From assembly GCA_037974665.1 (NCBI GenBank), contig CM075773.1:53916917-53980916 (forward strand): a stretch of 64,000 nucleotides of DNA, written 5' to 3'. A model generated the notes under the pieces. That model was not told the origin of the DNA, did not search any database, and saw nothing but the letters and a program-made list of their open reading frames with translations. Numbering within the stretch: position 1 is the first letter of the stretch; every line of letters starts with the position of its first letter. This document shows positions 1-44,609 of this stretch, piece by piece. A program made the position numbers and the translations under genes. Source of the DNA: Ehretia macrophylla (Eukaryota > Streptophyta > Magnoliopsida > Boraginales > Ehretiaceae).

Positions 1-321
1 TTTTTGTGTTTTCGCATAGATTTTCTTTAACTTTTCTAATCACTCTAGGTTTCTTTTTCCTTCTTTGTCTTAATTCTTTTTTCTAATCTTGTTCCCATTT
101 CTTAGAGTCCTATTTTCCAGAACCTTTGTTTGTCAAAAAAAAAAAAAATTCAGTTTCCGTGACAGAATTATTTTCGCTGCTTAGTTCTTCTTGATAGTAT
201 TGATTAGTTTCAAACAAACTAAAGGGAGGATACGAGAGGAAAAAGGCAGAGTGTGAGATTATTAGAGGGTAAAAGCCAAGTTGAATTTGAGTGAAACACG
301 TGAGGGAGTGTAATTTCAACC

Positions 322-1101
322 ATGTCTCAAACTCAAAGGGACAACACAAACGAAGAAGGTCAACAAGTCGCTGTTTCGAACTTACAAATGCAAGCTTTGT
401 TGGGAGAGATGAGACGGATGATGAGAGCTGAATTTGAACAAATACATGAGAGGTTTGAAAGAAAATATAAGGTCAAGCCCGAGTCCAAACAATCCACCAA
501 TGCCACGACCTCCCAAGGTAAATCAGCTTCTACTACGCTTCAATCTCATGATATTAAATGTTTTACATGTCAGGGATGGGGACACATAGCAAGCCAATGC
601 CCAAACAAGCGAGCAATGGTAGTCTTGGAAAGTGGTGAGATTGAATCTAAAGACGAAACATATTTTGATGACATGCCCATACTAGAGGACACCGTAAAGG
701 GAGAAGAAGAGTTTGGGGCAAATAATGGAGAGATACTTGGACTAGTGGCACAACGAGCCTTAAGCCTGCATGCTAAAGAAGAGGAAGAGGTAGAACAACG
801 TGAGAGCATCTTTCATACTCTCTGCCACGTGAAAGATAAGTGGCTGAATGCTTGTGGTGAGGAAGGGGTTACAAAACAAGTTGTGGTGCTGTTTCGAACA
901 GGAAAGTATAAAGATGAGGTATTGTGTGATGTGGTACCAATGCATGCCGGACATCTTCTCTTAGGAAGACCATGGCAATTTGATCGACGTGTGCAACATG
1001 ATGGTTTCACCAACAAGTACTTATTCATGTTCAATCAGCGGACAATAACTCTAGTTCCGATGACACCAAAACAAGTTTATGAGGATCAAGTGAGGTTATA
1101 A
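322..1101 (+). pseudogene. gag/protease-region relic of element A
   Basis: A 259-residue reading frame. Residues 25-50 are a charged helix typical of gypsy gag. Cys80, Cys83, His88 and Cys93 form a CX2CX4HX4C zinc knuckle of the nucleocapsid type (about 559-600). The last 50 residues (LLGRPWQFDRRV and following) match the segment that normally comes after the aspartic protease in gypsy polyproteins. The protease core itself is not evident. Part of a degenerate retroelement, not a host gene. Confidence 0.75.
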
Positions 1102-1519
1102 AAATTGAGTGATCAAAAGAACTTGAGTGAACAAAAGAATTTGAGTGATCAAAATAATTTGAGAGAGCAAAAGAATGAGAGTGAAAAGAAAAGTAAGGCC
1201 GAATCTGGAGAGGAGGTAAGGAGAGAAAAGAACTCGGCCAATGAGTTAAAAACAGAGAGAAAACAAAGTAATTTTTATGCAAAAGTAAGTGAGGTTAAGA
1301 GAATTTTGATCTCAAAATGGCCAATGATTGTACTCATGTACAAAGAGGCTCTTTTAAAATTTAACCAACTTGACTCTGCATTGCCTAGTGTTGTTGTTTC
1401 TCTCTTGCAGGATTTTGAGAAAGTGTTTCCCGAGTACATGCCACATGGTCTACCACCAAGGCTGGTCTTTGAACCTGGAGGATTTGAGGACAAATCCTTC
1501 TCAAGAGGGGGGGGAATAA

Positions 1520-2272
1520 TGCAAACTAGCCATCCACATTCATTGCACCATTTGGATGAATTTTCAGCAAAGATTCAAGTCAAGATTTTATTTTCAAGAT
1601 TCAAGAACTTCAAGATTCTTCAAGAAGTTTCAAGAAGATTCGACGATTTAGTCAAGATCTGATTTCTTTGTAATTCTATCCTAGTTTTAGTTTTCAATTT
1701 TAGTTTAATTCCCTATGGATGAATTTAGGTGTTCACACTAGGAAAGAGACTTTCTTGGGCTGCAAGATTAGATGTTCACACTAGAAATGAGCTTTTCTTG
1801 GGCTGCAAGTTTGCTTCATTTTTAGTTACTATTCACATCACTATTCACGTGAATAGTTAATAGGAGTCTTTTCTTGGTCTCCAAGTTTGTTTCCTTTGAC
1901 CTAGTTACTATTCACGTTTTTCTATTTCAGCTAGGGTTTAAGAGTCTTTTCTAATTAGGAAACTTATTTGTTCTTTGCCTATATAAGGCTGATTTGCAAC
2001 AAATAATAGGAAGAGAACTTTGATATTAAATTTGTGAGATTATTCTCCTTAAGTTCTCAAGAACTTTTCGAACTTATCAAGATTATTCTTGTGGCGTTCA
2101 CCTTGACTTATCAAATGAGACTCCCATCCTTGTTTGTGGCGTTCTCAACTATACCAAGGTTCTAGCTTTGCTAAGTATAGGGTCGCGGTTCCATCTATTC
2201 CTGAAAGGTCTTGGGGTCGTTTGTCATATTTGGTGTTGGGTCGCGTCACATGTTGGCGTGGTTCGTATCACA
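1520..2272 (+). repeat. 3' LTR of element A
   Basis: Begins with TG just after a G-rich polypurine tract and ends with CA at 2271-2272, about 753 bp. It contains a TATA-like TATATAAGG near 1980 and short internal repeats around 1730-1870. The exact left edge is uncertain by a few bases because the partner LTR is outside the window. Confidence 0.65.
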
Positions 2273-2292
2273 TTTGACCTATGGTCATAACA

Positions 2293-2467
2293 TTACCTCC
2301 CCCTTTTGAGAGAACCTTGTCCTCAAGGTTCAGATTGAAAACATGCAGATTATCCCCGAAAAGTTTAACTTGAGCTGTTGTTATGTCATCCCAAACTCCA
2401 ACGAATGCTTCGAATGTGGCCCTTGTTGCATCTCGCAGAGTTGAAGTAACAATGAGAGCACCTTGTT
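2293..2467 (-). pseudogene. Pol C-terminal relic and purine tract of element B
   Basis: After the UGT piece the frame reads into RDATRATFEAFVGVWDD and NLNLEDKVLSKGGGNV. The last motif resembles the end of chromovirus polyproteins, where it follows the chromodomain. Element E in this window has NLEDKVLIEERSDV at the same place. A purine tract (minus strand, 2305-2293) follows and the 3' LTR starts at 2292. The left junction with UGT is approximate. Confidence 0.5.
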
Positions 2468-3104
2468 GCATAGCTTCCCTTGCCAAATATTTCCATTTCT
2501 TAGCATTCTTTCTCAACTCTAGCCCTCTCTCGCCACCATCTGAACCCCGAAAAGGTTCAGATTCACTTGTTGTCAGTCTAACCTCTGTCCTCCACACATC
2601 TTGGAGCAGCTTTGCATTTTTCCCTTGATCTGTCCAATGAGGAAGAGCCACCACCGGTACCCCACAAACTATGCTTTCTAGTGTAGAATTCCATCCATAG
2701 TATGACACAAAACAACCCAAAGAGGGATGTGTTAGAACCTCAAGCTAAGAACACCACGGCCCTATCATTCCATTTTGTTCCAATTCTTCCATGCAACTCA
2801 ATTTCTCGTCGTCCTCCTTGTGTTCTTCTCCATTTTTATTCTCTCTTGTCACCCACAAAAATGGCCTACCTGTCTCTACCAACCCTCTTGCAATCTTCCC
2901 CATTTGCTGTTTTTCCAGATTCAACAGATTTCCAAATGATACATAAACAACTGATGATTCAGGCTTTGAGTTTAACCATTCCATATAATCTTTCGAGTTT
3001 TCGAAAAGATCACCGCCAAATGAAGTGTCTGAAGGATATTGACCGTCCAGGAAAGATGACGGAATCAATGGTCCTACCCCAATCAATTTGTACTTGTCAA
3101 TGAA
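2468..3104 (-). pseudogene. UGT75-like glycosyltransferase fragment captured in element B
   Basis: Matches the C-terminal half of plant family-1 UDP-glycosyltransferases: IDKYKLIGVGPLIPSSFLDG, EWLNSKPESSVVYVSFGN, GRPFLWVTRE, then the PSPG donor-binding box (PWCS, then HPSLGCFVSYYGWNSTLES and VPHWTDQG-type sequence), then KNAKKWKYLAREAM. The closest remembered group is UGT75 (crocetin, anthocyanin 5-O and similar glucosyltransferases). The N-terminal acceptor-binding half (about 230 residues) is absent. The conserved His of the PSPG box is Tyr, and the frame is interrupted, so it is not an enzyme. The piece ends near 2468, where retroelement-like sequence resumes. Confidence 0.85.
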
Positions 3105-3242
3105 AGCACCTTGCCACTTTTCATGGAATTGCAGAAAAATATGAAAGCAATTACAGTAAAGAAAAGTAAATAAGATGATAGTTGATAGCTTTTCATCGAA
3201 GGAGATACCACATGCTTCACCATCGTCTAGTTTGGTCACCAA

Positions 3243-3395
3243 ATGCTTTCTTTTGCCATATTCTTCCTTCCGACCATAGACATTTTTATATCCGTCATAT
3301 CGGCATCCATCAGAACAGCCAACATTAGCCTAGTAACACTCGCAGTACTTTTTTAAGCACATAGACTTCTTGCAATTGCACCCTCTTTTCACACT
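3243..3395 (-). pseudogene. Tesmin/TSO1-like CXC domain fragment captured in element B
   Basis: KRGCNCKKSMCLKKYCEC is the first half of the CRC/CXC domain of TSO1/tesmin-like DNA-binding proteins. Homology continues in the following bases (ANVGCSDGC, then NVYGRKEEYG) to about 3250. Intact family members bind CHR-like promoter elements and act in cell-cycle and floral control (DREAM-type complexes). Several cysteines of the second half are replaced and the piece is interrupted, so it is a relic. It is fused directly to the EF-hand-type fragment at residue 346/347 and leads on toward the UGT fragment. Confidence 0.72.
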
Positions 3396-4085
3396 ATCAT
3401 CTGCATCCAACATTTTTAGAGCTTCACTTGTGATTTTGTCCATCTGATCAACTGCACCTATGGGTGGCAAGCCAGCTGAGGGGGCCATAATATAAAGTGC
3501 AACGCGCAAATATTCCTTTGACATTTTCCCATGGCGATCTTTAGGAACACCTTCCACAGCAGAATCCAGCATCTTATCTAATTCAAACTTGTTAGACAAC
3601 AATCTCTGGATGCCATTTCCATCAAATGTGTTCGCACTATGTGCAACAATCACATGCTGCTCCTTGAGATGCTGTGCCACACTCTCTGCAATGTTTTTGA
3701 ACTTAACGAAAAATGTCTCTTGTGAAACAGGATGCTCGGGAACATCACCATAATATTGCAGCGCAGGTTCAACAATGTTGCTCATTACCCAAGGATCTGA
3801 GGCAGGAGACATCCCCTGCTCAACTGTAAGCTTCTCAAAGGCCTTGATAATATAATGTCGGAGCGACCAATCAGGAAATTCTATCGCAGAGAAAATGGAG
3901 AGCATCTCTAGTTCAAAACTTGGGCTGTTAAGAAATTCAACAAGATCTTCGCCATCTATACGAAGTATTACATCAGGGTCTCGTTTTAACCCAGCAGCCA
4001 TGCCTATTAGAATATCTGAAAGAACCTCTTTAAACTCAGTCTTGCTTACTTCTTGTTGTTTTCCGTGAGTGAACTCATTAAGATC
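3396..4085 (-). pseudogene. EF-hand-type plant protein fragment captured in element B
   Basis: Residues 117-346 of the same open frame. The segment from KTEFKEVLSDILIGMAAG to SEALKMLDADD resembles the C-terminal two-thirds of a conserved plant calcium-binding EF-hand-family protein of unknown role (GMAAGLKRDP, WVMSNIVEPALQ, HSANTFDG and APSAGLPPIGAV are the recalled hallmarks). It runs 230 residues with no sign of an intron, and the frame stays open on both sides. That is consistent with a spliced RNA source. The identification rests on memory of the family, not on a search. Confidence 0.6.
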
Positions 4086-4433
4086 CTCGGAGTAGATGTG
4101 ATCAGAATCAGGAAGTAACCCCTTGTTTGCCATTTCTTGAACAAAATTCAAAGTTTCCTCTATTCTACCTTCTTCACAAAACCCGTGAATCACAACATTG
4201 ATCAACAATATAGAATGCACATCTTCGATGAATTTCAACTTATTCCCATCAACAAGAACATCCAACAACAAATAATAACTAAACGTCCCGGGTTTAAACC
4301 TAAATTCCTTCTCCGTAACATCAAGTATACGAACAATTTCATTATAAAATTCGAATTTTGCATAACATTCGATGATGAAGAAGAAAATACTGTCACTTGC
4401 GTTAACATCTGAACCCTGCTTCATGTCATTCAT
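4086..4433 (-). pseudogene. PPR-protein fragment captured in element B
   Basis: Residues 1-116 of a 367-residue open frame. Segments such as INVVIHGFCEEGRIEETLNF, followed by MANKGLLPDS, fit the 35-residue pentatricopeptide repeat (helix A 'NVVIHGFCEEG', helix B 'EETLNFVQEM', then 'G..PD'). About two to three degenerate repeats are visible. In intact plants these proteins bind organellar RNA. Here it is only a fragment fused in frame to EF-hand-type sequence, so no PPR function is expected. The donor gene cannot be named. Confidence 0.6.
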
Positions 4434-4442
4434 GACTAGAAA

Positions 4443-4987
4443 CTATTTGCCGAAAAGCTCAACCCAGAGAATGTTCGAATTGCTTATGATGGGCTTGCGT
4501 TGATCGTCACCGTCGTTTGAAGGGATCTCGTCGTCGATCATCTGTCCCGAAGTATCCTCGTCGGATTTTATTACAACATCGTTGCACGAGATATGGTCTT
4601 CCGACGTAACAACATTTGGTGGAAGAACTTGAGTATCCATGATAGTGGTGATTGGAGAATTCTCCGATGAAATAGGCAGAATTATCAGAGCTATCTCGTG
4701 GACGAAACCCGGAGGGGTAGTAGGTGTTGTCGCCGATGATGGTTTGGAAGGTGTTGTCATCACCGTTGACGAAGTGGGCACCAGAGATGGTAGAACTCCA
4801 AATTTGTCACTTAAGAGCGCAATATATCGTTCAAATTTGGCGTCAAGAATCGTGAGCATAGAATTGAGAGTGCCTAAAGTTTGTTGATGGTCATCGAGCC
4901 ATTGAGAATGCTCGGCTGCAGTTTGCTAGAGCTTCGTCACCATCTCCTCCACAGCATCACAGCAGCAAGTGTTGTTCCGTCCGCCAT
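4443..4987 (-). pseudogene. gag N-terminal relic of element B
   Basis: Starts MADG, a common beginning of gypsy gag. It includes LTILDAKFERYIALLSDKFG, a coiled-coil style gag segment, then a Pro/Thr/Ser-rich stretch and an acidic tail ending about 4443. It is broken and short compared with a full gag (usually several hundred residues plus a zinc knuckle, which is absent). The following frame begins ten bases downstream with host-derived PPR sequence. Confidence 0.55.
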
Positions 4988-5012
4988 GAAAGAAGCTCAA
5001 CGAAAGCACCAA

Positions 5013-5348
5013 TGTACTGGTTTGGATTTTAGGGAGATAATATTTCAGCAGAAAAAAATAAAGCAAATTGCAGGAACAGAGATTTGTTACTGATGCAGAA
5101 AACAAAATTACAGAAGAAAGCTAAATGATAGTGTTTTGCTTAGCCTCTCATTGATGCCTTCACACTCTATATATGCTTACTCATTACAACTCACACCACG
5201 AGCCTAACCAACTATCGTTATAACATATTTGACACGTAATCCCTCATGTGGACAGGCTGGGCCCTGGCTCGAATATTCCGCTTTGAGCTCGCTTCACTTA
5301 TATTCTGATCTTTTAACAGCTGAGTTCATTAGACATGTGATCATAACA
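5013..5348 (-). repeat. 5' LTR of element B
   Basis: 336 bp, read from 5348 down to 5013, bounded by TG and CA. It has a TATA-like TATATAGAG on the minus strand near 5170. The sequence just inside (TTGGTGCTTTCGTTGAGC) resembles the primer-binding leader seen in many dicot gypsy elements, and an ATG follows at 4987. Confidence 0.65.
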
Positions 5349-7905: not shown

Positions 7906-7909
7906 AGAG

Positions 7910-8272
7910 AAAATGTCACAAATAGTCCCTATTGTTTCGTCTGAATTTCATATTCGTTCATATTATTTAAAATTAATTAATTTACTCTCTATTATTTTTT
8001 AAATATTTCAAATTCGTCTTTATTATTAAAATTAACCAATTTAGTTTCTTTTATTTTCCAAAAAATTTCAATTTAGTCCCCAAATAGGATTACATGTAGG
8101 CACTAAATTGAAACTTTTTAGGAAATAATAAGTACTAAGTTTGTTAATTTTGAACAATAGAGACAAATTTAAATTTTTTTGAAAAATAATAGAAAATAAA
8201 TTGATTATTTTAAATAATACAGACAAATTTAAGATTTTTATGAAACAATAGGAACCATTTGTGTAATTTTCC
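7910..8272. mobile_element. Fold-back MITE, unclassified
   Basis: Terminal inverted repeats: the left end reads GTCACAAATAGTCCCTATTG and the right end, reversed, ACACAAATGGTTCCTATTG. Complementarity continues inward (AATTTAGTCCC versus its reverse), so nearly the whole 363 bp folds back. No coding sequence. A target duplication could not be fixed. Related fold-back copies occur at 17826-18200 and in degraded form at 12880-13080. Confidence 0.6.
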
Positions 8273-9284: not shown

Positions 9285-9689
9285 AATGTTTCATGCTACT
9301 ACTGTTCCTCCAAATCTAGTTCAATAATCTCTAGTGTTGAGAACAATTTTGTAAGTAATATTTTTTAATAAGTATTGTACAATTAATTTTTTATTTTTTA
9401 TTTTTTATTTTATGTCATCCTGCTAATTGGACATTTTAAAGCATCTAACAAATATGCGACTTGAGAGCCCTTGGAAGTGAATAAATTGTGGCAGAATTTA
9501 TTTTTGACAATGGGATCTTTGTAAATGCCCTCTCAAAATCTTTCCTTTTATTTAAACTTTCTTTCTGAAATGCTATTTTATTGTATTTGAAACGCTTCTA
9601 TTATTGGTTCGTTCAAACACATTAGGTATGTGGTGTGTTTAATTAATTAAAGCGTGTCTCTTAATGGACGTAATTATTCGTATTTGTTT
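9285..9689. other. Spacer before the tandem duplication
   Basis: AT-rich, no gene or repeat recognised. Confidence 0.4.
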
Positions 9690-10544
9690 TTTCAATAAAT
9701 ATCTCTGAAGAAGTTTTTAAGGAATTCATCCAATTTACCTTACCGACACAACATATTAAGAGAGTACAATGTCCTACAATTATTATTGTGTAGCGAAAAT
9801 AAGTTGTCAATTTTTATAACTTCTTTTATAACTGACGAGAACAACATAAACAACGATAGAGAATAACATTTTTACGATAAATAATAGTAAAACATAAATA
9901 ACTAGTAGCAATTGGTATAGTATGGCATCAATTCTCTAACACTACGAAAAGAAAGGGGAAAAGACTTTTTCTAAAGGCTTGCTAAATTAGTTACTGAAAT
10001 CAATTAAGATTGATTTAGAAAAAAAAATTGAAAAAGTTGGTAATTTAATTAAGTCCAAACTTGCTATGTAGAATGTATGATACAAGTAGGAGTTTAGAGC
10101 CCACAAGTCATGTCATCGTGAACTTACCCTTTACATCATAAAGAAAAAAAATATATAATAAAAGTTTTTATTTTATTGAAAAACTTGAAATTAGAAAGTG
10201 GAATAAAAGTAGAAAAAAAGAAATTTAAAATATCAATATGTTTCAATTAAATTATAATATTTAGCGGGTGGAAGAAAACGTTGTCTATTATGTAAATATT
10301 CAAAAAAAAAAAAAAAATTGAATGTATGCCATAAGTCGTGACGTGGCACATATTTTCTCCCTTGAAAAATAAATAAATAAAAACGACAAATAAACAGAAG
10401 AATAAAGGAAATCTGGAAAAATACAATTAGGTGGGGTTGGAGAGGTTTCGGAAGCTTTCCAAGTCAAGATGAAAACCGCGTTGCGGTGGAGTGCGGTTGG
10501 GTGGGGCCACATATGCGGGAGAAAGTGGGAAAATGTCGCGTAAA

Positions 10545-10810
10545 ATAGGAAGAGGGCAGTTTCCGGGAAGCTTCTCGTTTTTTGACAAAGTTGGCCTCAG
10601 AAATTTTAAGTGGCCGATGTGAAATATCATGCCACCAAAAAGCCCTTCTGGACAACCAGTACAGATCAAAAAACAACTATAAAAGGGATTGCTCCACAGT
10701 TTATTTGATTTTGAAGTGTCGTTTCGTTGGCGCAAAAGAAGCTATCCTTGGTGAAGAGAAATAGGATATCCAGAACTAGAGGCTCTGGCCAAATGAAGAG
10801 TGTGGCTGCT
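10545..10810 (+). promoter_or_regulatory. TATA-containing conserved block, possible promoter
   Basis: A block starting GGAAGAGGGCAGTTTCC recurs at 14920-14990 and twice at 42737-43099. Only this copy continues into CTATAAAAG (10678-10686), followed by a transcribed-looking leader with short ATG frames that end quickly (for example ATG at 10794). No protein of any length follows, so a promoter is only a guess. Confidence 0.2.
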
Positions 10811-11237
10811 CAAGAGTTGTGATGGGATTATTGTGAAGATAATCAAACAGGGATCTCATCGAATCGGGCATTCATTTTTTTTTTTTTTTTTTGGGGTAAA
10901 AAATGGGCATTCATGTTTTGAATCGTGTATTTTCATTCTTTCTGTCATCTTTTTTTTTTTTTTTTTTTTAACGCATCTCGTGGAGCAGGGCTGATCTTTA
11001 TCATGTTTTTCAGAATCTGTTTCTAGTCATATGAGTTTGAAGTCGTGGTTGAAACTTAAAATCACGGATTACAATGGATTACGTCTTATCCATTTCATTT
11101 CAACTCTTAATTAGGTTTTGTAAAATAACATTATTATATATTACTCTACTTTTATTATTTAAATTTCACTTCTTATATAGATATTTAGTTGACATGTTAA
11201 AATAATAATTTTTTTAATTTTTATTTCTTCTTTTAGT

Positions 11238-11401
11238 ATGTCAACTAAACATACACATAAGAAATTATATTTAAGTGATAAATCTAAAGTAATATATAGC
11301 ATTTCTATTTGTAAAATTTATGTCAACTAAACATACACATAAGAAATTATATTTAAGTGATAAATCTAAAGTAATATATAGCATTTCTATTTGTAAAAAT
11401 T
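11238..11401. repeat. Two-copy 82-bp tandem repeat
   Basis: 11238-11319 is repeated almost without change at 11320-11401 (starts ATGTCAACTAAACATACACA). Unit 2 of the large duplication has a single copy at about 15798-15880, so the repeat arose after the large duplication. Confidence 0.85.
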
Positions 11402-12163
11402 TTTTCCATTATTAAACTTAGCAATGTGAATTTAGTCGAGAATTGATTTAAATCTTTTTTTTTTGATAACTTAGAAAAATATTTCCACTCAATCCGTTCA
11501 CGAGACATAAATTAGCTTGTGAACCATGCTAGAGGATCCTTCGGACAGTATTTTCCACCTCTTACATCGAGATAGACACGGGTTGTCCACCCAGAAAGTT
11601 GCAGCAATATAATTAGATTAACCTCTTAATTGTTAGCGGAAAAAAATAAATAAATGACTTAACACCCTTCTCCAATTTTGGAGACGAATCTATTGGCCCG
11701 GCTTCAAAAAGGAGACGATATTTATTTATTTTATTTTATTTTTTACATTATTTTATTTTATCTTTTTTATTTTTTTATATTTATTATTTTATTTTTGTAT
11801 TTTACTAAAATTGCATAATGCACCCTTGTATTTTATAAATAAATAGATTATCTCTTTGTGTTTTAAAAATATAGTACCTTTTATGTTTTATCAACTTAAT
11901 AGCTATGTTTTGGCAAAATACAAGGTGTTAAATGTATGACTTCATTGGCAAAAAAGCAACTGATGAGGTGGCTCTAAGCCCAGTAACATTTGTAAAAACT
12001 TTCGAGAAATTGATAAAGAAAGGAAGGAAGCATATTAGTAACTTTGCTAATCCAAATTACATCACGACAAGAGGGATAACTTCTCGAGTCACCTAGAGGT
12101 TGGTGAAGAATCACTGTTAATCCCTTTAAAAAAAAAAATTAGAACACTTCACCAATCAACCAT

Positions 12164-12796
12164 TCAACTGAGATCTTGTGCAGCTTCTTCATCTCTTCCC
12201 TTCATTAAACTGGGCAGACGTTTACCAAATTTAACAATGTGCTTCCAAATCCTGGTGAAGAAGTGCTGGACAAGCATAACCCCATCTTGAAAATGCCATT
12301 CTCTACGTTGTTCCATTCTTAAGTACATTCCATATGCCAACTCGACTATTGCAAGTGTGAAATACAACAAATATGGAACGAAAGTAATCCAGTTCGAAAA
12401 CAACAAAGAAGCGGATGATGCCAAGCATATGTACCCGAAAAACCAAGTACAAAAATGAGCAATGTTCTTCATAAGTGGACGGAACTGCCACGCACGATGT
12501 CTTCGCTTAGCATCGTAAGCATAGCAATATGCTAGATAAGTAGCAATTGCCAGATACGTGGATATAGGATGTGTGTCAAATAATGTCCTGTCTTTACCTT
12601 GATATTTGAGTTGTAGAAAGCCCAATAATACTGGAACGACAAGCAAGAGAGTTGGGTGTGGAGAATTACCCAAATCGCGTTCTTCGAACAAGTTGAAAAA
12701 CCGAGTCACCAAGGCCAAATCATTACTGAAGATTCTTGCCAAGCTTGTTCCTCCTATTCCAAGATGAGGGAGGCCTCCTCTTAAGTCGTTAGCCAT
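12164..12796 (-). CDS. Four-helix membrane protein of unknown function
   Basis: A 210-residue frame with the ATG at 12796. The frame is open 17 codons further up, but CTTTTCAG, an intron-acceptor-like signal, lies just before, and the same arrangement precedes the paralogue at 8388. MANDLRGG is therefore the likely start and a 5'-UTR intron is likely. Hydrophobic segments at about 48-64, 78-94, 112-133 and 136-157 predict four membrane helices. The N-terminus is Gly-rich. The C-terminal 50 residues are basic and amphipathic (FFTRIWKHIVKFGKRLPSLMKG). Conserved family features are QLKYQGKD, LFDTHP, TWFFGY and REWHFQ. No family name is recognised. It is the only copy of three without frame breaks, but expression is unproven. 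Confidence 0.6.
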   Translation of the reverse strand: MANDLRGGLPHLGIGGTSLARIFSNDLALVTRFFNLFEERDLGNSPHPTLLLVVPVLLGFLQLKYQGKDRTLFDTHPISTYLAIATYLAYCYAYDAKRRHRAWQFRPLMKNIAHFCTWFFGYICLASSASLLFSNWITFVPYLLYFTLAIVELAYGMYLRMEQRREWHFQDGVMLVQHFFTRIWKHIVKFGKRLPSLMKGRDEEAAQDLS

Positions 12797-12829
12797 TGAC
12801 GCCTGATCAATATATACCTGAAAAGATTG

Positions 12830-13100
12830 AACTGAGATTAATTCCAAAAATTAAAGTTGTCTTGACAAGGTAAAACATAAAAATATGAGGATAAAATTAG
12901 CTAATTTTGAATAATATATATAAATTCGAAATTTTAGAAAATAATAAAGATTAAATTATCTAATTTTGAGAGAGATGAATTTTAAAAATTTAGGAAAAAG
13001 AAAAATTGTAAAACTAGTTTTTATTATTTTTTCAAAATTTTAAAGATTAAATTAATTAATTGTACAAATTCTTTTGAAAGTATGCTATTTAGAAAAAAAA
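12830..13100. other. Upstream region of the membrane-protein gene with degraded fold-back repeat
   Basis: AT-rich, with alternating sense and reverse copies of a motif like AAAATAATAAAGATTAAATT, resembling the fold-back family at 7910-8272. The 5'-UTR intron of the minus-strand gene probably lies here. The minus-strand TTAAATAG near 13215 could be a TATA box, but this is weak. Confidence 0.3.
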
Positions 13101-14054: not shown

Positions 14055-16598
14055 TTTTTCAATAAATATCTCTGAAGGAGTTCTTTAAGAAATTCATCCA
14101 ATTTACCTTACCGACACAACATATTAAGAGAGTACATTGTCCTAAAATTATTATTGTGTAGCAAAAATAAGTTGTCAATTTTTATAATTTCTTTTATAAC
14201 TAACGAGAACAACATAAACAACGATAGATAATAATATTTTTACGATAAATAATAGTAAGATATAAATAACTAGTAGCAATTGGTATAGTATGGCATCAAT
14301 TCTCTAACACTACGAAAAGAAAGGGGAAAAAACTTTTTCTAAAGGCTTGCTAAATTAGTTAATGAAATCAATTAAGACTGATTTAGAAAAAAAATGAAAA
14401 AAGTTGGTAATTTAATTAAGTCCAAACTTGCTATGTAGAATATATGATACAAGTAGGAGTTTAGAGTCTACAAGTCATGTCTTCGTGAACTTACCCTTTA
14501 CATCATAAAAAAAAAAAAATCTTATAAAAGTTTTTATTTTATTGAAAAACTTGAAATTAGAAAGTGGAATAAAAGTAGAAAAAAAGAAATTAAAATATCA
14601 ATATGTTTCAATTAAATTATAATATTTAGCAGGTGGAAGAAAACGTTGTCTATAATGTAAATATTCAAAAAAAAATTGAATGTATGTCATAAGTTGTGAC
14701 GTGGCACATATTTTTTGACGTGAAAAACAAATAAATAAAAAAGACAAAAAAACAGAAGAATAAAGGAAATCTGGAAAAATACAATTAGGTGGAGTGGGCG
14801 AGGTTTTCGAGGAAGCTTTCCAAGTCAAGATGAGAACTGCGTTGCGGTGGAGGTGCGGTTGGATGGGGTTCACATGCGTGAGAAAGTGGGTTAAATGTCG
14901 CGTAAAATAGGAAAAGGGCAGTTTCCAGGAAGCTTCTCGTTTTTTTGACAAAGTTGGCCTCAGAAATTTTAAGTGGCCGATGTGAAATATCGGGTTATTT
15001 TTATATGAGATATATGGTAAATTTATCACATGTATATAGATAAAAAGTGATTTAATTAGTTGACAAATATTAATTAATTATCATAAATAGAACATTATAG
15101 TAATTTATTTAAAACTCTCTAAGGCCAAATTAGTAAAAAGAGAAATGTTAGATATTCTGATATAACATATCTGCACGATACAAACTAATGTGGATTAATT
15201 TTATGGAATAATAACTTAACATGTGGCTGTGACAGATTTATCATATGCCTCATAGAAGAATTTTCCTTGACTTTGAAGTATCGTTTCGTTGGCGCAAAAG
15301 AAGCTATCCTTGGTGAAGAGAAAAAGGATATCCAGAACTAGGGCTCTGGCCAAATGAAGAGTGTTGCTGCTCAAGAGTTGTGATGGGATTACTGTGAAGA
15401 TAATCAAACAGGGATCTCATTGAATCGGGCATTCATTTTTTTTTTTTTTTTTTGGGTCAAAAATGGGCATTCATGTTTTGAATCGTGTATTTTCATTCTT
15501 TCTGTCATCTTCTTTTTTTTTTTTTTTTTAACGCATCTCGTGGAGCAGGGTTGATCTTCATCATGTTTTTCAGAATTGTTTGTAGTCAAATGAGCTTGAA
15601 GTCGTGGTTAAAACTTAAAATTACGGATTACAATGAATTACGACTTATTCATTTCATTTCAACTCTTAATTAGATTTTGTAAAATAATATTGTTATATAT
15701 CACTCTACTTTTATTATTTAAATATTATTTTTTACATAGATACTTAGTTGGTATGTTAAAATAATAATTTTTTTAATTTTTCTTTCTTCTTTTAGTATGT
15801 CAACTAAGTACACACATAAAAAAATGTATTTAGGCGATAAATCTAAAGTAATATATAACATTTCTCTTTGTAAAATTCTTTTCCATTATTAAACTTGGCA
15901 ATGTGAATTTAGTCGAGAATTGATTTAAATCTTTTTTTTTTTTGCTAATTTAGAAAAATATCTCCACTCAACCTGTTCACGAGACATAAATTGGCTTGTG
16001 AACTATGCTAGAGGATCATTCGGACAGTATTTTCCACCTCTTACATCGAGATAGACGAGGGTTGTCCACCCAGAAAGTTGCAGCAATATAATTAGATTAA
16101 CCTCTTAATTCTTAGCGAAAAAAAAAGTAAACGATTTAATACCCTTGTATTTTGTTAAAACTGCATAATCCACCCTTGTATTTTATAAATAAGTAGATTA
16201 TCTATTTGTGTTTTAAAAACGTAGTTAAATACCTTTTATGTTTTATTAACTTAATAGCTATGTTTTGACAAAATACAAGGTGTTAAATTGTATGACTTCA
16301 TTGGCAAAAAAGCGACTGATGAGGTGGCTCTGAGCCCCGTAACATTTGTAAAAACTTTCGACAAATTGATAGAAGATGGAAGGAAGCATATCAGTAACAT
16401 TGCTAATCCAATTAAAAATGACTGAACTTAACTTTCTTAGCAATTTAATCAGTGATAAAATTTGATTGAAAACCAGAGGAAGCATGCAAATTTGGGTTAC
16501 ATCATCTATCTTCAGCTTCGACAAAAAAAAAAAAAAAAAAAACTATCTTCAGATTTTTTATTTGCACCTCAAATTAGAACACTTCACCAACCAACCAT

Positions 16599-17190
16599 TC
16601 AACTGAGATCTTGTGTAGCTTCTTCATCTCTTCCCTTCATTAAATTGGGCAGACGTTTACCAAATTTAACAATGTGCTTCCAAATCCTGGTGAAGAAGTG
16701 CTGGACAAGCATAACCCCTTATTGAAAATGTCATTCTCTATGTTACATTCTCAAGTACATTCCATATGCCAACTCGATTATTGCAAGTGTGAAATACAAC
16801 AAATATGGAACGAAAGTAATCCAGTTTGAAAACAACAAAGAAGCGGATGATGGCAAGCATATGTACTCGAAAAACCAAGTACAAAAATGAGCAATGTTCT
16901 TCATAAGTGGACGGAACTGCCACGCACGAAGTCTTTGCTTAGCATCGTAAGCATAGGAATATGCTAGATAAGTAGCAAAATTGCCAGATACGTGGATATA
17001 GGATGTGTGTCAAATGATGTCCTGTCTTTACCTTGATATTTGAGTTACAGAAAGCCCAATAATACTGGAACAACAAGCCAGAGAGTTGGGTGTAAAGAAT
17101 TACCCAAATCGCGTTCTTCGAACAAGTTGAAAATCCGAGTGACCAAGGCAATTCCAAGATGAGGAGGCCTCCTCTTAAGTTGCTAGCCAT
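16599..17190 (-). pseudogene. Broken paralogue of the four-helix membrane protein (copy 2)
   Basis: The duplicate of the 12164-12796 gene inside unit 2. The ATG at 17190 is kept (MASNLRGGLL), but about 39 bases covering GTSLARIFSNDLA of the intact copy are missing and the frame changes soon after. Further small indels occur near 16975, 16740 and 16725. Nucleotide identity to the intact copy is high over the rest, including the upstream intron-acceptor region, so decay followed the tandem duplication. Confidence 0.8.
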
Positions 17191-17439
17191 TGACGCCTGA
17201 TTAATACCTGAAAAAGATTGAACTGAGATTAATTCCAAAAATTAAAATTGTTCATGACAAGGCAAAAAATAAAAGTAAAAATAAAAATAAAAGAAAATTT
17301 GATTTTTTTCCTTAAAGTTTAATATGTTAAAAACAGGGTAAATTGTCATTTTCTCTATGTACAATGATTAGAGAGCCGGCAAACGTATTTGTCCTATTAT
17401 AAATAAAGAAAAAAAGAAATGAAAATAAAATGTTAGACA

Positions 17440-18458: not shown

Positions 18459-18923
18459 TGTCAAGGTCGGAAATCTCGCAATTGAGGTTGGATGCTACGT
18501 GAGCCGAGCTGGATCCTTCAGGTTGTCCCCGAGCTGTATTTTCTGGGTCGGCTACCGGACCTGCACAAGAAAAAGAAGGAAAAGGCGGGGTGATGACCCT
18601 GATTTTCCCCTCGAACGTGCGAATGATTAGTATGTCCGAGCTGGCAAGGTAGCTGAGAGCATTTAATGACGAGTTACCTCCTTAAATGAAGAGGGTGGAG
18701 CTCTATTTATACTAAGTTCTGGTCTGACAGCATTTAATGCAGCGCAGCTTTATGTCCCATCAGTGCTTTATGTCCCATCGGAACAGCTGGAACTGAGGTC
18801 GGGGTTTCCTGGGTCGGGCCAGTCAACCTGGTTGGACATTCAGTTGAACGCGCTGACTTTGGCGCTGATTAGCCCGCCTCGGCTCGGGATGGATTCGTAC
18901 CTCAGCTCGGGAACCCCTCGTCA
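18459..18923 (-). repeat. 3' LTR of element C
   Basis: 465 bp, TG to CA. Contains a TATA-like CTATTTATAC (minus-strand GTATAAATAG) near 18711. Followed on the + strand by CCCTCCCCCCC, the complement of the polypurine tract. Confidence 0.9.
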
Positions 18924-19349
18924 ATTCCCTCCCCCCCAAGTCGAGATCGAGAGGGTGAGATCTAGAATTGGCAGTTCCTCCCGAGCTGTAGGTGTCCGAC
19001 CCCGAGAGAGTAGGGATGGCCATGTCAGCGGTGCATGCCCAACGGATGGCTGACACGTCACCTGGCGGTTCTGACGAGACGCGACGTTTGGGCTTCCCGA
19101 GGCGACTTTCAAGGGCGCCTATAAATAGGGCTTTGACATCCGAGATTCATTCCACACTTCGCTTTCAATCCCTCAAGAATTTTAGGTCGGACACCAGAGT
19201 GGTCGGAAGCAATTAGCTCGGAATGAATCTTCTCGGGATTTGTCAGCTCGGTGCCAGCTTGGTCGGTCGCCCTCTGCAATCAAGAGCAGTAGATATGTCC
19301 CGACTCTCTTTAGTCATTCCTGTTCATTTATATTTAGTCTGTAGACAGG

Positions 19350-21690
19350 ATGGGGAGGTCGGAGTCGGAAGATTCTCAGGCTATGGAAGTAAGGTCCTAC
19401 GGTGGAGATGAGAGTCCGTCGAGCTTGGAATCTACCTCAAATAGGGACCATGGTAGAGAAAGAACCAGTTCGTCTCCAGGGTCGGCTCAAAAATCCGGGC
19501 CTTGGGAGAGCGATGATGACTGCCAGGTTATTGGGGTCAGAATGGCGCAAGAAGAGGTCGAGGCAGATCCTTTGGACGACCTGGGAAACTTGGGAGATGG
19601 AGAGGACAACGAGCCATTGAACAAGTTGGAGGGGGTCGAGATACCACATGAGTACTTAGCTGGAGTTTCCGCCTCGGAGCCGACTGCAGCGGTCCCGATT
19701 AGGGCAGTCCGACCTCAGAGCTCAGCTACAGCCAGTGGTTCGTCAGGTCGAGGGAAGAGGATAGAGCAGTTATTCACTTGTTGCCAGCGCGAGTGTCATT
19801 CAACCATCGAGATGGCCAACGCTCCGCTGAGAGACTGGTCGGTGGACCGACACCACAAACTGAAGGTCCCTGGTCGGAATGACCCTGCCTGCTATCCTCC
19901 GCCCGATCACTTTATGATTTACGACCTCGCCTTCGATGTCGTCCGCCTTCCACTTCGCAGCTTCATTACAGGCATTCTAAACTACTTTGAGCTCAGCCCG
20001 GGTTAGATGTCACCAAACGGTTGGGCCATAATGGTGGCATTCTTCGTGTTCTGCCTCGAGAGGAAGATAGAGCTGACCTTGCACCGTTTCAGGCATTTCT
20101 TCGTTTGCAAGCCCAACCCGAAGCAGCTAGGCTGGTTCCACTTCGCAGCTCGGGTCAACAATGCCATATTCACCAAGTGGCACTCATCTAACAAGGGCTG
20201 GCATAACGACTACTATTGGGTCGAGTCGACAGTGAACCCAGGGTGCAGGATGGACTGGAATCTTTCACTGAAAAAGACTTTGAATGACAACCCTAAGCTT
20301 TCCAAAGAGGAACTCGCCGAGGTCAGCGTGCTGAGGCCCGAGCTGGGTATGCTGATCGACATCGATAGTGTCCTCAGGTGGGACAGGATATGGAAGTCCA
20401 AGTTATTCGGGAGAGAACCTGACCTGAGCAAAGAGCACCCACACTTACTTCCCGAGCCTGAAAAGAACGCTCGTTCCGACTCAGAAGAGGGTCAGTTCGC
20501 AGGATCAATGCCCGACCTCCCCGTCTCCTTGTTTGTCGTTGCTCTTCTCGATTGGTAATTGGTCATTTTTCACATTCTTTTCCTTTGTTTTTGCAGGCAT
20601 GGCAGATACGGTGAAGCTTGCGTATCTCCAGAGAAAGAGAAAGCCCGACGCCAGTGGCGAGGCGTCGGCTCGGTCCAGTTTTGGCTCCGTCTTTCAGGAG
20701 TAGAGGCAGCGGTTCGGGGGCCATGCGCGGGAGGTTGACGCAGAGGTCTCGTCGGGATCTCCTTTGACAAAGAAGGCGAGCTCGGGTGTGGTGATCCCCG
20801 AGCGCTCGGCATCCCGTCCTGACAACAGGAAGTGGCCCCGGCCCGAGTACTCCGGGAAGGGCAAGGCCGTGGAGGTGAGCCCTCCAAATAAGGATTTTGT
20901 GGAAGCTGTAAAGGTTGCCCGCGATCCCAAGTTGGGGTTAGTCCCGGCTGAGTAGCTTTCACTTGACCTGAGGACGGCCATAGTTACGGTAAGACATACC
21001 CAGACATGCTGTCATGGTTTCTTTTGTTGATTACTTTGACTGACCACTTTGTTTTCTTCCGCGCAGGCTGAGTCCCACATCCTTACGGTGCCTGGCCTAC
21101 TTGCCCGAGCCCAGACTTACTGTGTGGAGCTCGAGCAGCGCTACACAGATTCCCGAGCCGAGCTGGAGTCCTTTAGGACGGATGCGGCCCAGAGGCATAA
21201 AGCGGATGAGGCAGAGATCGCCCGGCTAAGGAAGGAGCTCGAGGCTGCGAAGTCCAGGCGCCAGGCCGCGGCCAAGGACGTTGAGCGCTACAAGCGGGAG
21301 AAGCGCAAGGCCGAAGCGAAGCATAAGGACCTCTTGGATCAGGTCGGCCCACTAGGGGAGAAGGCAGTGGAGGCCTTTAAGTCCAGCCAAAAGGTTGTGG
21401 ACTGGCTAGCCACTGAGGGTGGGGTGATTGCCCGGTACGTCGAGTTGGAGTACTACTTCCGAGGCCAGGTTGCAGCTCGCGAGAGGGCGAAGACCTTTTT
21501 CCCTGCTGCCAAGAACGATTATATCGAGATCTTGGAGGCCCCGCTCCCGAAATTCTGGGAGATTCCCGAGCTACCGGCCGACCTGACGTCCTAGGCCAAA
21601 GAGGTGCTAGCGTTCGTCGAGAAGGGTATGGACCAGGTCGGCGACGTAGCCGAGGCCACCACCTCCACCGCTGTTCCCAAATAATAATAA
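19350..21690 (+). pseudogene. Antisense gene of element C (putative gypsy-type transposon domain plus coiled coil)
   Basis: Lies between integrase and the 3' LTR, opposite to gag-pol. The first part (MGRSESEDSQ, acidic and Ser-rich) leads to a domain with WAIMVAFFVFCLERKIELTL, RHFFVCKPNPKQLGWFHFAA and WHNDYYWVES. This resembles the domain often annotated 'putative gypsy type transposon' in plants. The last part (about 21100-21590) is a long Ala/Glu/Lys/Arg coiled coil ending WEIPELPADL. Intron-like borders (acceptor TTTTTGCAG at 20596; GT 20989 to AG 21066) recur in element D. A TATAAATAG at 19120-19128 precedes it. Extra antisense genes are known in Tat-lineage elements, but their function is not. 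This copy is broken. Confidence 0.72.
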
Positions 21691-22319
21691 TTTCTTTTGT
21701 AAAGTCGCCCAGGTCGGGCTTTTATAATTCTGCCCAGGTCGGGCTTGTGTAATTGACATTAGTATTAATGAAATATCAATTTTATTTTTGTTTGCGTTTT
21801 GGTCGAGTTTGTACGCGTGTATCTTTCTCTTCTCAAATTTTTCTTAAATAACTGGGGTCAGACCAATTTAATGGACCATACAAACTTAAGCGTAATGAAT
21901 CGAGCTGGACGCGACTAGTGAATTAACACCCTAATCCGAGCTGGTTAATTGGGCAACTGTTTAATCGCCGCTGACCTGGACTCGTCAGTCCGATTTAAAA
22001 CTGGTCAAACTAATATTGACAAATGTTGAGCTCGAGTTCGGACCCCAAACTAACATACCGACCTGAAGCCGGATTAAACCGAGTTGGAACTCAATCCGAA
22101 CTGGCAGAACTTATCAAATTATTATTGATTATACCCTAGCTGGAACTTTGTCCAAGCCGGTTTTATTGATCATTAACTCGTGATCAAGCGTGGCCACCGC
22201 GTTAATCCGAGTTGGTAATAGATTTGTAGCTGAGGCAATTTGGGCCCGTGTCGGGAATTGCGCTGATTTTGTTTTGTTCCCAGGTCGAGAATTGTACTTG
22301 TATGTAAAGATGCATTGTA

Positions 22320-22450
22320 TTGAGTTTGTACAAGCAATGTCTTGGCCCGGGGCCTTTACAAGATTTCTCGGCTCGGGGCCGTTACAAAATATTTCGGCTT
22401 GGGGTCGTTACAAAGTATTTCGGCTCGGGGCCGCTAGACAAAATACTGCT
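22320..22450 (-). repeat. Short tandem repeats after pol of element C
   Basis: About four degenerate units of roughly 30 bp around the core CGGCTCGGGGCCGTTACAAA. The matching array in element D is at 49897-50005. Tandem repeats in this spacer are a known habit of Retand-type elements. Confidence 0.7.
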
Positions 22451-22499
22451 TCAGGTGTTCCGAGTGCCATGCGTTCTTCAATAGTTTCCCGTTCTTGAC

Positions 22500-25400
22500 G
22501 CGAAGGTAGAAGGTCCCGGGTCGGACTTCTTTCACGACTTCATAGGGTACCTCCCAAGTCAGGGAAAGCTTGTTACTGGAACGCGGCGAAAAGATGGCCT
22601 TCCTGAGCACGAGGTTGCCAACCTTAATAGGCTTAGGCTTAACCTGTTTGGCAAAGGCCCTTTGCTGGCTAGCATTCTGATTTGAGCTTTAGCTCGAAGC
22701 TCTTCAGCGAGGTCGAGCTCTTCACGGATCCGTGCTCCGTTTATTTCTGGATCACTGTGGAGGATCCTACTGGTCGGGGACCCGATCTCCATTGGCAGCA
22801 CAGCTTGAGTGCCGAAGGTCAGTTCGAAAGGCGATTCTCCCGTTGCCGAGCTGGTGTTGGTTCGTTGAGCCCACAATACCTTGGGAAGAATTGATACCCA
22901 ATGGCCCTCCGCTTCCTCCAGCTTGGTTTTTAAGCCCTACAAAATGATTTGGTTAGTCCTTTCAACTTGGCCATTACTTTGAGGGTGAGCAATAGAAGAG
23001 AATCTGAGGTCGATCCCGATCTCGGCACATTTGCCTCGAAAGTATACATTGTCGAATTGCTTGCCGTGGTCAGTGATGATGACCTTTGGCACCCCAAATC
23101 GACAAATGATGTTTTTCCAAACGAAATCCCAGGCTGCCTTTTCTATTATTCTAGCAACACCTTCAGCCTCGGGCCATTTGGTGAAGTAGTCTACAGCTAC
23201 GAATGCGTGTTTCTTTTGGCCGACACCGGTCGGCAATGGGCCGATGATGTCTAGACCCCACTGATAGAATGACCATGGGCTTATCATTACTGTGAGGTCT
23301 ACCGCAGGCTTCTTCTGCACATTGGCGAACCTCTGGCAGGTGTCGCACTTTTTTATATACTCTTTGGCATCTTGCTCTAAGGTTGGCCAGAAATAGCCTT
23401 GCCTTAATGCCTTCCGAGCCAGAGCTTTGCCCCCCAAGTGGTTTTCACATACCCCTTCATGAATCTCTCGGAGTACATAGTTTCCCTCTTCGGGTCCAAC
23501 ACATTTCAAGAGAGGCCAAGTGTAGGCTCTCTTATAGAGTTGCCCGGCTGTTATGACAAACCTTGGGGCCTGTTTCATGAGTTTCCGAGCTGCTTTTTCA
23601 TTTTTTGGGGTCATACCCCCTCCAAGTAGTCCACGATTGGCTTGGTCCAATCTGGGCTTAGATTGAGCTCGGCTACGGCTTGTACCCCCAGCTGAATACT
23701 GGGTTCGGATACTTCTTCCACATGGACCAGGGCAGGTCGGCTCTTGCCCAAGGCCAACCTAGACAGGGCATCAGCCTTCATATTCTCTTCCTTAGGAATC
23801 TGCTGTATCGTGAACCTTCTGAGCGCTGAGGTCAAATCCTTGACTCTGTTGAGGTAGGCCAGCATAGTACTGTCCTTGGCTTCGAACTCTCCCGATATCT
23901 GACTAGAAACCAATTAAGAGTCGGCTCAGGTCTACAGTCTGTGCCCCGAGCTGAGCTGCAATTTTCAGTCCTGCAATCACCGCTTCATATTATGCTTCAT
24001 TGTTGGACGCCGGAAAGGTGAACTTGAGGGAGTATTGGTGCTCATGCTGGGTTGGGTCGAGGATGACCACCCCAGCTCCGCTATCGGACTTCCCTGAGGC
24101 CCCATCCAAATGGACTTTCCATACGTCCTTCGGGTCATGCTCCGTTCGGCCAGTGCATTCTACAACAAAGTCCGCGACGGCTTGGGCTTTGATGGCTGTC
24201 CTGGGATGGTAGGTGATGTCGAATTGACTCAGCTCAACTGCCTATTTCAGTAGCCTGCCCGATGCCTCTGGCTTGTGCATGATAGACTTGAGCGGGGCAT
24301 CCGTCATGACCCTAATTGGATGAGCATCAAAATATGGCTTCAACTTTCTTGCCGCAGTGACGAGTGCGAGGGCGAGCTTTTCCAAGGAGGAGTATCTCAC
24401 CTCGGCCCCTTGCAAGGTTTTGCTAACATAATAGACCGGCCTCTGCTCCTTTCCTTCTTCTCGGACTAGTGCCGCTGCCATTGCTGTTCCCGAGCATGCT
24501 AAGTATAGTACCAGCTCTTCCCTCACCTCAGGTCGGGAAAGCAGAGGTGGCGAAGCTAGATACCTTTTCAGCTCTTGGAAGGCATTCTGACATTCCGAAG
24601 TCCATTCAAAGTTCTTAGGGTTCCTCAGTATTTTGAACAGATGAGCGCACTTGTCAGCCGACCTGGACATGAATCTGCTCAGCGCTGCGACCTTGCCTAC
24701 TAACACCTGGACGTCCTTCACGCAGGTCGGCGGCGCCAGGTCAAGTATCGCCTGGACCTTCTCCGGGTTGGCCTCTATTCCGCGGGCCGTGACCATGAAG
24801 CCCAGGAATTTGCCTGCCTTGACGCCGAATGCGCACTTTTCCGGGTTCAGCTTTATCCCGAAATGTTTCATTACGGCGAAGGCTTCAGCCAGGTCGGCTT
24901 CATGGTCCTCCGCCCTCCTGCTCTTAACCAGCATGTCATCTACGTAGATTTCCATGTTCTGGCCAATCTGATTTTTGAAGGCCTTGTTCACCATCTGAGT
25001 GTAGGTAGCTCCAACATTCTTGAGGCCGAAAGGCATGACCTCATAGTAGTAGAGTCCTTTATCGGTGGTAAAGGCAGTCTTCTCTTTGTCTCCGGGAGCC
25101 ATCTTGATTTGGTTGTAGCCTTTGAAGGCATCCATAAAGAAGAGTAGCTCGAACCCGGAGGTGGCGTCCACCATCTGATCGATCCGAGGTAAAGGGAAGT
25201 AGTCTTTAGGGCAAGCTTTGTTGAGGTCGGTGAAATCAATGCACAGTCTCCATCCTCCTGAGGACTTAGTCACCATCACCACATTGGACAACCAGGTTGG
25301 GTACTGTATTTCCTTTATGTGGCCGGCATCCACTAACTTATCCACTTTTTCGGCTATGATTTGTTGTTTATCATAATGGAAGTGCCTGCATTTTTGGTTT

Positions 25401-27706: not shown

Positions 27707-27775
27707 AATGGTTTCTCAATGAGTGGGGAAGAGAGTTGATAAAATAACTCGTCGTTCCCATAGACGGCACCAAAT

Positions 27776-28239
27776 TGTCGAGGTCGGAAATCTTGCAATT
27801 GAGGTTGGATGCTACGTGAGCCGAGCTGGATCCTTCAGGTTGCCTCCGAGCTGTATTTTCTGGGTCGGCTACCGGACCTGCACAAGGAAAAGAAGGAAAA
27901 GGCGGGGTGATGACCCGGATTTTCCCCTCGAGCATGCGAATGATTAGTATGTCCGAGCTGGCAAGGTAGCTGAGAGTATTTAATGACGAGTTACCTCCTT
28001 AAATGAAGAGGTGGAGCTCTATTTATACTAAGTTTTGGTCTGACAACATTTAATGCAGCGCAGCTTTATGTCCCATCAGTGCTTTATGTCCCATCGGAAC
28101 AGCTGGAACTGAGGTCGGGGCTTCCGGGGTCGAGCCAATCAACTTGGTTGGACATTCAGTTGAACGCGCTGGCTTTGGCGCTGATTAGCCCGCCTCGGCT
28201 CGGGATGGATTCGTACCTCAGCTCGGGAACCCCTCGTCA
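27776..28239 (-). repeat. 5' LTR of element C
   Basis: 464 bp, nearly identical to 18459-18923. Inside it (minus strand, below 27775) lies TTGGTGCCGTCTATGGGA, the primer-binding site, equivalent to TTGGCGCCGTCTGTGGGA in element D. Confidence 0.9.
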
Positions 28240-29934: not shown

Positions 29935-30220
29935 GAGCATCTCCAATAGGAGACACTATTTATAAAAATATACCATTTTTGGCAATTTTTAAAAATTGGG
30001 TCTCTAAATTTAGAGTCAAAATACATGGAACCCGTCACTTTTATTAACTTTTGGGTCTCTAATTTAGAGACCTAAAAATTAATTGGGTCTCTATTTTAGT
30101 CAAAAAATTGATAAAAGTGACAGGTTCCATGTATTTTGACTCTAAATTTAAAGACCCAGTCTCTAAAAATTGTCAAAAATAATATATTTTTATAAATAGT
30201 GTCTCCTATTGAAAAGACTC
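29935..30220. mobile_element. Tourist-like (PIF/Harbinger) MITE
   Basis: 286 bp, an almost perfect palindrome. The ends are GAGCATCTCCAATAGGAGAC and, reversed, GAGTCTTTTCAATAGGAGAC. TAA flanks both sides (29932-29934 and 30221-30223). The left TAA is shared with the right target duplication of the neighbouring Harbinger-like element, so this MITE used that TAA as its target. Confidence 0.88.
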
Positions 30221-31827: not shown

Positions 31828-32281
31828 GGGTGAAGTGCATCAGATCCCCTTATAGTTTAGTGAAAGTGCACAACACCCCCCCATAGTTTAAAAACCCCCT
31901 GAACTAGTCCCTATGTTTTTTAAAAGTGCACAACGTCCCCCTACCGTTAAAAAATCCGTTAAATTTAACGGAGAGTGTACTTCACACTCGTTAAGTGAGA
32001 TTTTTTTTTAATTTTTAACGAATTTATTAATTAAATAATTATATGAATTGACCAAATTACTTTTTTTTTTTTGGCCTAAACAAAACAAAAGAGAGAAATA
32101 AAAAAAAAATGAGGGTATTTACGTCTTTTTTACAAAATCCGTTAAATATGACGGATTTTTTAACGGTAGGGGGTGTTGTGCACTTTTAAAAAACATAAGG
32201 ACTAGTTCAGAGGGTTTTTAAACTATAGGGGGGTGTTGTGCACTTTCGCTAAAGTAGAAGGGGGTCTGGTGCACTTCACCC
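31828..32281. mobile_element. Mutator-like MITE with long inverted repeats
   Basis: 454 bp. The left end GGGTGAAGTGCATCAGATCC and the right end, reversed, GGGTGAAGTGCACCAGACCC begin inverted repeats of about 145 bp with few mismatches. Direct 9-bp flanks AAATTAAAA (31819-31827 and 32282-32290) match perfectly, as for Mutator superfamily insertion. The 150-bp centre is AT-rich and non-coding. Confidence 0.88.
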
Positions 32282-44088: not shown

Positions 44089-44540
44089 TGACGAGGGGTT
44101 CCCGAGCTGAGCTAAATGAGCCGGCCTTCTGAGCAGAGATGGGTTAATCCGCGCTCCGTCAGCAGCTCGTTCAGCTCAATGTCCAACCTAGATGACTGAC
44201 CCAACCCCGTTAACCCCGACCTCAGTTCTAGTTGTTCCGATGGGACATAAAGCTGCGTCGCAATAAATGCTGTCAGACCTGAACTTAGTATAAATAGAGC
44301 CCCACCCCCTTCATTTGAGGGGATCTCGCTATTAATTGCTCTCAACTGCTTTATCAGCTCGGACATACTAATCGTTCGCACGCCTGAGGGGAAAATCCGG
44401 GTCGTCACCCCGCCTTTTCCTTGCTTTCCTTGTGCAGGTCCTACAGCCGACCAAGAAAGTGCAGCTCGGAGGCGGACCAGAGAAGTCCAGCTCGGCCAAA
44501 GCAGCTCCCAAATTCAACTGTGAGACTTTCAACCTCGACA
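44089..44540 (+). repeat. 5' LTR of element D
   Basis: 452 bp, TG to CA. TATA-like AGTATAAATAGAG near 44289. Immediately followed by the primer-binding site. Confidence 0.92.
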
Positions 44541-44609
44541 GTTTGGCGCCGTCTGTGGGAAACGACGAGTTCTTTTATTACTCTCTTTGCCACTCATTGA
44601 GAAACCATC

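Follow-up and report, generated by a model that had tools for sequence, protein, structure and literature searches.

Introduction

Can a single LTR retrotransposon carry pieces of several unrelated host genes in one reading frame, from its gag side to its pol tail, and how might such a chain have been put together? This question is raised by a locus of Ehretia macrophylla on contig CM075773.1, within a 64-kb stretch of DNA referred to here as the window. A first-pass annotation had described the locus as an LTR retrotransposon in which pol was replaced by a chain of four host gene fragments, labelled PPR, EF-hand-type, CXC and UGT. Our analysis indicates that it is probably the decayed copy of a Bs1-like, non-autonomous LTR element, the ancestor of which would have had one gag-host-pol fusion frame of approximately 900 codons.

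Anatomy of the element

On the minus strand, what is left of a non-autonomous LTR retrotransposon extends from 5348 to ~2271 (Table 1). Read in this direction, a 336-bp 5' LTR is followed by a primer-site-like motif, a gag-like start and the host pieces, and then by a pol tail, the purine tract and the stub of a 3' LTR. The 5' LTR is complete, with TG...CA termini; it opens with TGTTATGATC at 5348 and its CA end is at 5013. The 3' copy starts with TGTTATGACC at 2292, directly after the purine tract and the pol tail, and is interrupted after its matching bases. When the two LTR starts are compared downwards from 5348 and 2292, 18 of 22 bases are identical and the match ends at ~2273. Nowhere else on either strand of the 64-kb window is the LTR start matched at 17 or more of 22 bases. 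By BLAST alone the pair is weak (E 2.7), so the argument for the pairing rests on position, behind the purine tract and the pol tail. The matching LTR starts of the first-pass annotation therefore stand as a unique pair, with a 3' copy of 19 to 22 bases only, and its view of the locus as a single LTR element is supported. On the right, the element is flanked by TAGAA; its left end falls outside the window. The motif at 5012-4995 is presumably primer-site-like, a candidate label that we assume from its position.

Table 1. Features of the chimeric element and of the neighbouring insertion, in minus-strand reading order (window coordinates)
Feature	Position	Strand	Basis
5' LTR, 336 bp, TG...CA, TATATA stretch near the middle	5013..5348	minus	direct sequence reading; start repeated at 2292
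Primer-binding-site-like motif, directly after the 5' LTR	4995..5012	minus	position in sequence
ATG and gag-like N-terminal part; frame break after the start, then TAG at 4928-4926	4794..4987	minus	position
Open stretch without assigned family, 116 codons, no stop	4446..4793	minus	ORF reading; no Pfam match
PPR-gene piece	4107..4442	minus	PPR_2 E 7.6e-08; PPR chains in PDB
237-codon coding piece, predicted helical ('EF-hand-type' in the first-pass annotation)	3396..4106	minus	open frame
Probable CXC (TCR, TSO1/LIN54-type) piece, cut by TAG at 3332-3330	3255..3395	minus	Pfam and PDB, half before the stop only
T-rich linker, same frame open; 3' part may already be UGT	3096..3254	minus	ORF reading; weak UGT alignments to ~3170
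Primer-site motif repeat, 13/14 bases, at UGT start	3097..3110	minus	motif search
Plant UDP-glycosyltransferase (UGT) gene, second half, colinear, TAG at 2747-2745	2451..3095	minus	Pfam and PDB
pol C-terminal tail (NLEDKVL) and purine tract	2293..2450	minus	motif and DNA match to 62-kb pol
Purine tract	2307-2293	minus	direct reading, AAAAGGGGGAGGTAA
3' LTR, first 19 to 22 bases, then broken off	2271..2292	minus	comparison with 5' LTR start
Neighbouring LTR element with a zinc-knuckle gag; apparent insertion into the 3' LTR	1..2273	plus	zf-CCHC E 3.7e-04; LTR ends by direct reading

Beyond this stub the 3' LTR is absent, and the apparent cause is an LTR element of the plus strand that was inserted at this place. 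A candidate LTR of this second element, delimited by eye at ~1520-2273, apparently ends in CA at ~2273, and its other LTR would lie beyond the window. Such a nested insertion would interrupt the 3' LTR, a feature absent from the first-pass annotation, and would explain why only the matching start had been found there.

The window also contains several other repeats. Two relatively GC-rich LTR-type copies of ~9.8 kb (18459-28239 and 44089-53877) lie in opposite orientation and are 82% alike, with terminal repeats of ~465 bp each that are 96% and 95% alike. A large tandem-like duplication joins 9688-12885 and 14055-17277 in several blocks, ~89 to 93% alike. Three further stretches, at 31828-32281, 29944-30211 and 7909-8271 (~450, 270 and 360 bp), show matches of 76, 85 and 77%, respectively, to their own reverse complements and are perhaps foldback or MITE-type elements.

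Pol tail and a Ty3-type element in the window

The pol C-terminus and purine tract named in the first-pass annotation were readily located, with the NLEDKVL tail followed by AAAAGGGGGAGGTAA at 2307-2293, ahead of the 3' LTR as is usual for an LTR retrotransposon. A Ty3-type element with matches to RNase H, integrase and a chromodomain lies on the minus strand at 61880-63999; it is broken by stops and runs off the window. The motif NLEDKVL also occurs in its pol, at the end of the chromodomain match at 62.06 kb on the minus strand, and the two elements have in common both this tail motif and a 24-bp stretch of DNA (95.8%, E 5.6e-04 by BLAST). From its pol tail, and from that part only, the chimeric element is probably of the Ty3 type. 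The two differ in content: the 62-64 kb element keeps RNase H, integrase and chromodomain matches, its four searched ORFs giving matches of this sort or none, whereas no Ty3/gypsy-type reverse transcriptase or integrase was found in the ORFs searched in the chimeric element. This agrees with the earlier description of a pol reduced to its tail. As no retrotransposon enzyme domain was found in the ORFs of the chimeric element, any movement would have relied on the reverse transcriptase and integrase of a full relative.

Host gene pieces

Two of the host pieces can be named with confidence. The PPR piece exceeds the PPR_2 cut-off when searched alone (32.8 bits against a cut-off of 30) and reaches 29.5 bits within the whole ORF. 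The UGT piece consists of two halves that flank a TAG and are colinear in the PDB chain 6l8x (residues 199-332 and 334-438). Plant UGT chains match these halves with E 5.8e-20 and 4.9e-23, and in Pfam the second half is well above the cut-off of 19.5 bits (40.8 bits, E 1.7e-10), with the first half below it at 17.2 bits. Confident UGT coverage extends over ~3095-2451, and some alignments continue weakly back to ~3170.

The CXC identity is probable, judging from the first half of the piece. A TCR match at 3389-3333 covers model positions 1-19 of 38 and falls slightly below the cut-off (E 1.1e-04, 22.9 bits against 23.5), and a LIN-54 chain in PDB matches the same half with E 3.3e-06. The stretch after the TAG, which would be the second half, gave no TCR and no LIN-54 match, just a sub-cut-off GatD_N. 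The PPR, CXC and UGT pieces are all in the sense of the element, as had been noted, and pieces of at least two unrelated gene families (PPR and UGT, and probably CXC) are thus present in sense, as would be expected of a Bs1-like element.

The fourth piece is of a different kind. It is a coding-derived stretch of 237 codons (4106-3396) that contains no stop, where the other two frames have 14 and 24. Searched alone against Pfam and PDB to E 10, it has no credible relative. The hits, NusB (E 0.018, below its cut-off) and a mutase (E 1.3), lend no support to an EF-hand identity, and two models built without relatives were poor (mean pLDDT 40.5 and 40.3). The EF-hand label is kept as a lead. Of the four host fragments first described, PPR and UGT are firm and CXC is probable, but the EF-hand family could not be confirmed.

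Similarly, the gag label of the part at 4794-4987 is one that we presume from position. The gag-like region 4925-4446 has no Pfam match, so that the gag leader of the first-pass annotation was not confirmed as a family assignment; a search of the gag-like part against viral_contigs gave four pattern matches, none of which was confirmed. The T-rich linker at 3254-3096, searched alone, had no PDB match better than E 7.1. By eye it is open in frame and is without a clear acceptor, and it could be an intron remnant or a retained intron.

One reading frame across the interior

The 367-residue frame that had been said to join three of the pieces was recovered as ORF 4442-3330, which has 370 codons from stop to stop and 367 residues from the first Met. 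Beyond what had been noticed before, a single minus-strand frame spans the whole interior from 4985 to 2271, a distance of 905 codons with four stops, all of them TAG (4928-4926, 4445-4443, 3332-3330 and 2747-2745) and with neither TAA nor TGA. Over the same interval, the other minus-strand frames contain 58 and 69 stops, and the plus-strand frames 40, 32 and 51. The lowest of three frames never had fewer than 30 stops in any of 1000 dinucleotide-preserving shuffles, a generous null that overstates the surprise because exon-derived host pieces would be open anyway. The element thus has a hybrid reading frame of the Bs1 kind, interrupted by four TAG codons. Near its start there is also a frame break, since the first codons after the ATG at 4987 are in another frame. 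Of nine interior segments, which were set by eye and have approximate junction borders, seven have their highest G+C at codon position 1 of this frame and one shows a tie; the CXC segment peaks at position 3. TAG makes up 25 of the 127 stops in the other two minus-strand frames, giving a chance of ~0.0015 that four of four stops would be TAG, a bias consistent with the deamination of methylated cytosines in a CHG context.

The same chimeric element could have obtained its common frame by luck, if pieces that were open as exons happened to be joined in frame. We regard this as unlikely, even though a strict count gives a chance of 1 in 27 for the four pieces fixed by homology (PPR, CXC, UGT and pol tail), the finding was picked by a reader drawn to open frames, and the linker, with its 44 codons, could lack stops by chance. 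Counting six joins, the chance of a shared frame falls to 1 in 729. The frame is kept through nine segments, among them the gag-like part, the linker and the pol tail, and neither TAA nor TGA occurs over its 905 codons. The 116-codon stretch at 4793-4446, which has no assigned family, is free of stops, although its other two frames contain 11 among 230 codons (chance ~0.003).

Repeat of the primer-site motif

The primer-site-like motif recurs at the start of the UGT piece, and this repeat at 3097-3110 could be a strand-transfer point, the primer site of a second element, or ordinary UGT sequence. On the second of these possibilities, two related elements would have been joined there, one with the PPR, helical and CXC pieces and the other with the UGT piece behind its own primer site. 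The 13/14 match speaks for such a join, as does a comparison of U5 plus primer site with the linker, which only 2 of 2000 shuffles equalled under one gap scheme. Under two stricter schemes, however, the score was reached by 18 and 11 of 2000 shuffles and exceeded elsewhere in the window; some UGT alignments cross the motif to ~3170, so that it may be ordinary UGT sequence, and the motif was noticed after the fact. We therefore find a junction of two elements quite improbable. An internal copy of U5 in the linker was likewise considered and set aside: 1 of 1907 random stretches and none of 1000 T-matched stretches scored as high, but the result was not robust to scoring.

A third copy of the motif, at 2449-2462, differs at two bases and lacks significance, with four matches in the window against a chance mean of 1.16 and at least four in 4 of 100 shuffles. 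Elsewhere, the motif was found in 22 contig stretches of viral_contigs, a number near chance by rough estimate. Among the match rows between the element and these stretches, 15 of 16 were the motif itself, and a 250-codon stretch of the 62-kb pol had no match in them.

Origin of the chimeric element

A decayed Bs1-like element remains our preferred reading. Its anatomy, the orientation of the named pieces and the common frame are directly observed; only one copy was seen and the 3' LTR is nearly absent, and these two points count against it. Most of gag-pol would have been replaced by host pieces in sense, namely PPR, UGT, probably CXC and the long unnamed coding piece. These pieces may have entered in at least two steps, as spliced mRNA that was copied when the reverse transcriptase switched templates. 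Template switching between unrelated packaged RNAs is described in part of a review on the subject (PMC13317346), and transduced sequences are stated to be usually in the gag-pol sense in a passage of another paper (PMC7264820). The sense orientation and the unbroken frame fit capture from mRNA by this route, and we consider capture from spliced RNA by template switching to be plausible. The lack of visible introns is weak evidence for a spliced origin, because PPR and UGT genes are often intronless and the T-rich linker may itself be the remnant of an intron.

Least probable, and in our judgement hardly tenable, is that a Pack-MULE, Pack-CACTA or Helitron assembled the gene pieces and was then inserted in, or swallowed by, an LTR element: in passages of a maize survey, captures number 1194 for Helitrons, 462 for other DNA transposons and at least 189 for LTR elements (PMC2774510), but at this locus the named pieces all follow the sense of the element, the 905-codon frame has no intron break (the T-rich linker being the one doubtful place), and a search for inverted pairs of at least 14 nt found no Pack-MULE terminal inverted repeats around the cargo, since none of the four pairs, of 15 to 22 nt, had both arms at the cargo ends and one of them, 73% complementary, linked the UGT/pol-tail join to a place in the LTR.

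For the Bs1-like element, that the frame stays open across every join suggests that captures passed a filter for translation. The reason for keeping the frame, we propose, may be the better survival of element RNAs that have a long open frame, by escape from nonsense-mediated decay and through cis packaging by the gag part. It is possible, and we advance this tentatively, that the ancestor encoded a gag-PPR-helical-CXC-UGT-pol-tail fusion protein of approximately 900 residues and retained captures only if the frame stayed open. After silencing, the copy would have decayed, acquiring the four TAG stops by CHG deamination and the frame break near the start. In the last step, the second LTR element would have landed in the 3' LTR.

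Comparison with known gene-capturing elements

The maize element Bs1 is said to have been the subject of studies by Bureau (1994), Jin and Bennetzen (1994), and Elrouby and Bureau (2001, 2010). According to the part of a review that treats it, Bs1 holds segments of three host genes (an ATPase, a xylan endohydrolase and a glucanase) in a hybrid frame, and is reported to be transcribed and translated (PMC13317346). Bs1 and the present element are alike in being LTR elements with fragments of several host genes and a hybrid open frame, a likeness of description. They differ in that Bs1 has three donors and is reported to be translated, whereas the Ehretia element drew on different donors (two of them firm, one probable, and one or two without a name), continues its frame into the pol tail and is decayed in this copy.

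Host coding pieces inside LTR elements are also described in passages on other plants. In a maize survey, 425 elements carried gene fragments, which go back to at least 189 captures, and under its conditions none of them held more than one standard nuclear gene (PMC2774510). Captured genes number 672 in rice and 1,343 in sorghum in the passage that gives these counts (PMC3726574), and for pepper two or three genes within single elements are mentioned in the corresponding passage (PMC5664825). In contrast to the present element, a chain of pieces in one frame is not described in these passages (PMC2774510, PMC3726574, PMC5664825). No element with at least four donors in one frame is named in the titles and abstract openings from our literature search, and one may still be in print. 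Bs1-like gene capture is thus already known, and the Ehretia element perhaps has more pieces than its precedents; what distinguishes it is the number of pieces together with the single frame from the gag side to the pol tail.

Chimeric LTR elements have been proposed as a source of new plant genes. If other copies of this element are expressed, they would encode a candidate multi-domain protein, the present copy being broken. An element with many donors in one frame could be used to test whether capture is random or filtered by frame, which single-gene captures cannot do. If the tentative proposal of frame-filtered capture is true, selection would have made frame continuity a rule by which non-autonomous LTR elements capture genes, operating for example via nonsense-mediated decay.
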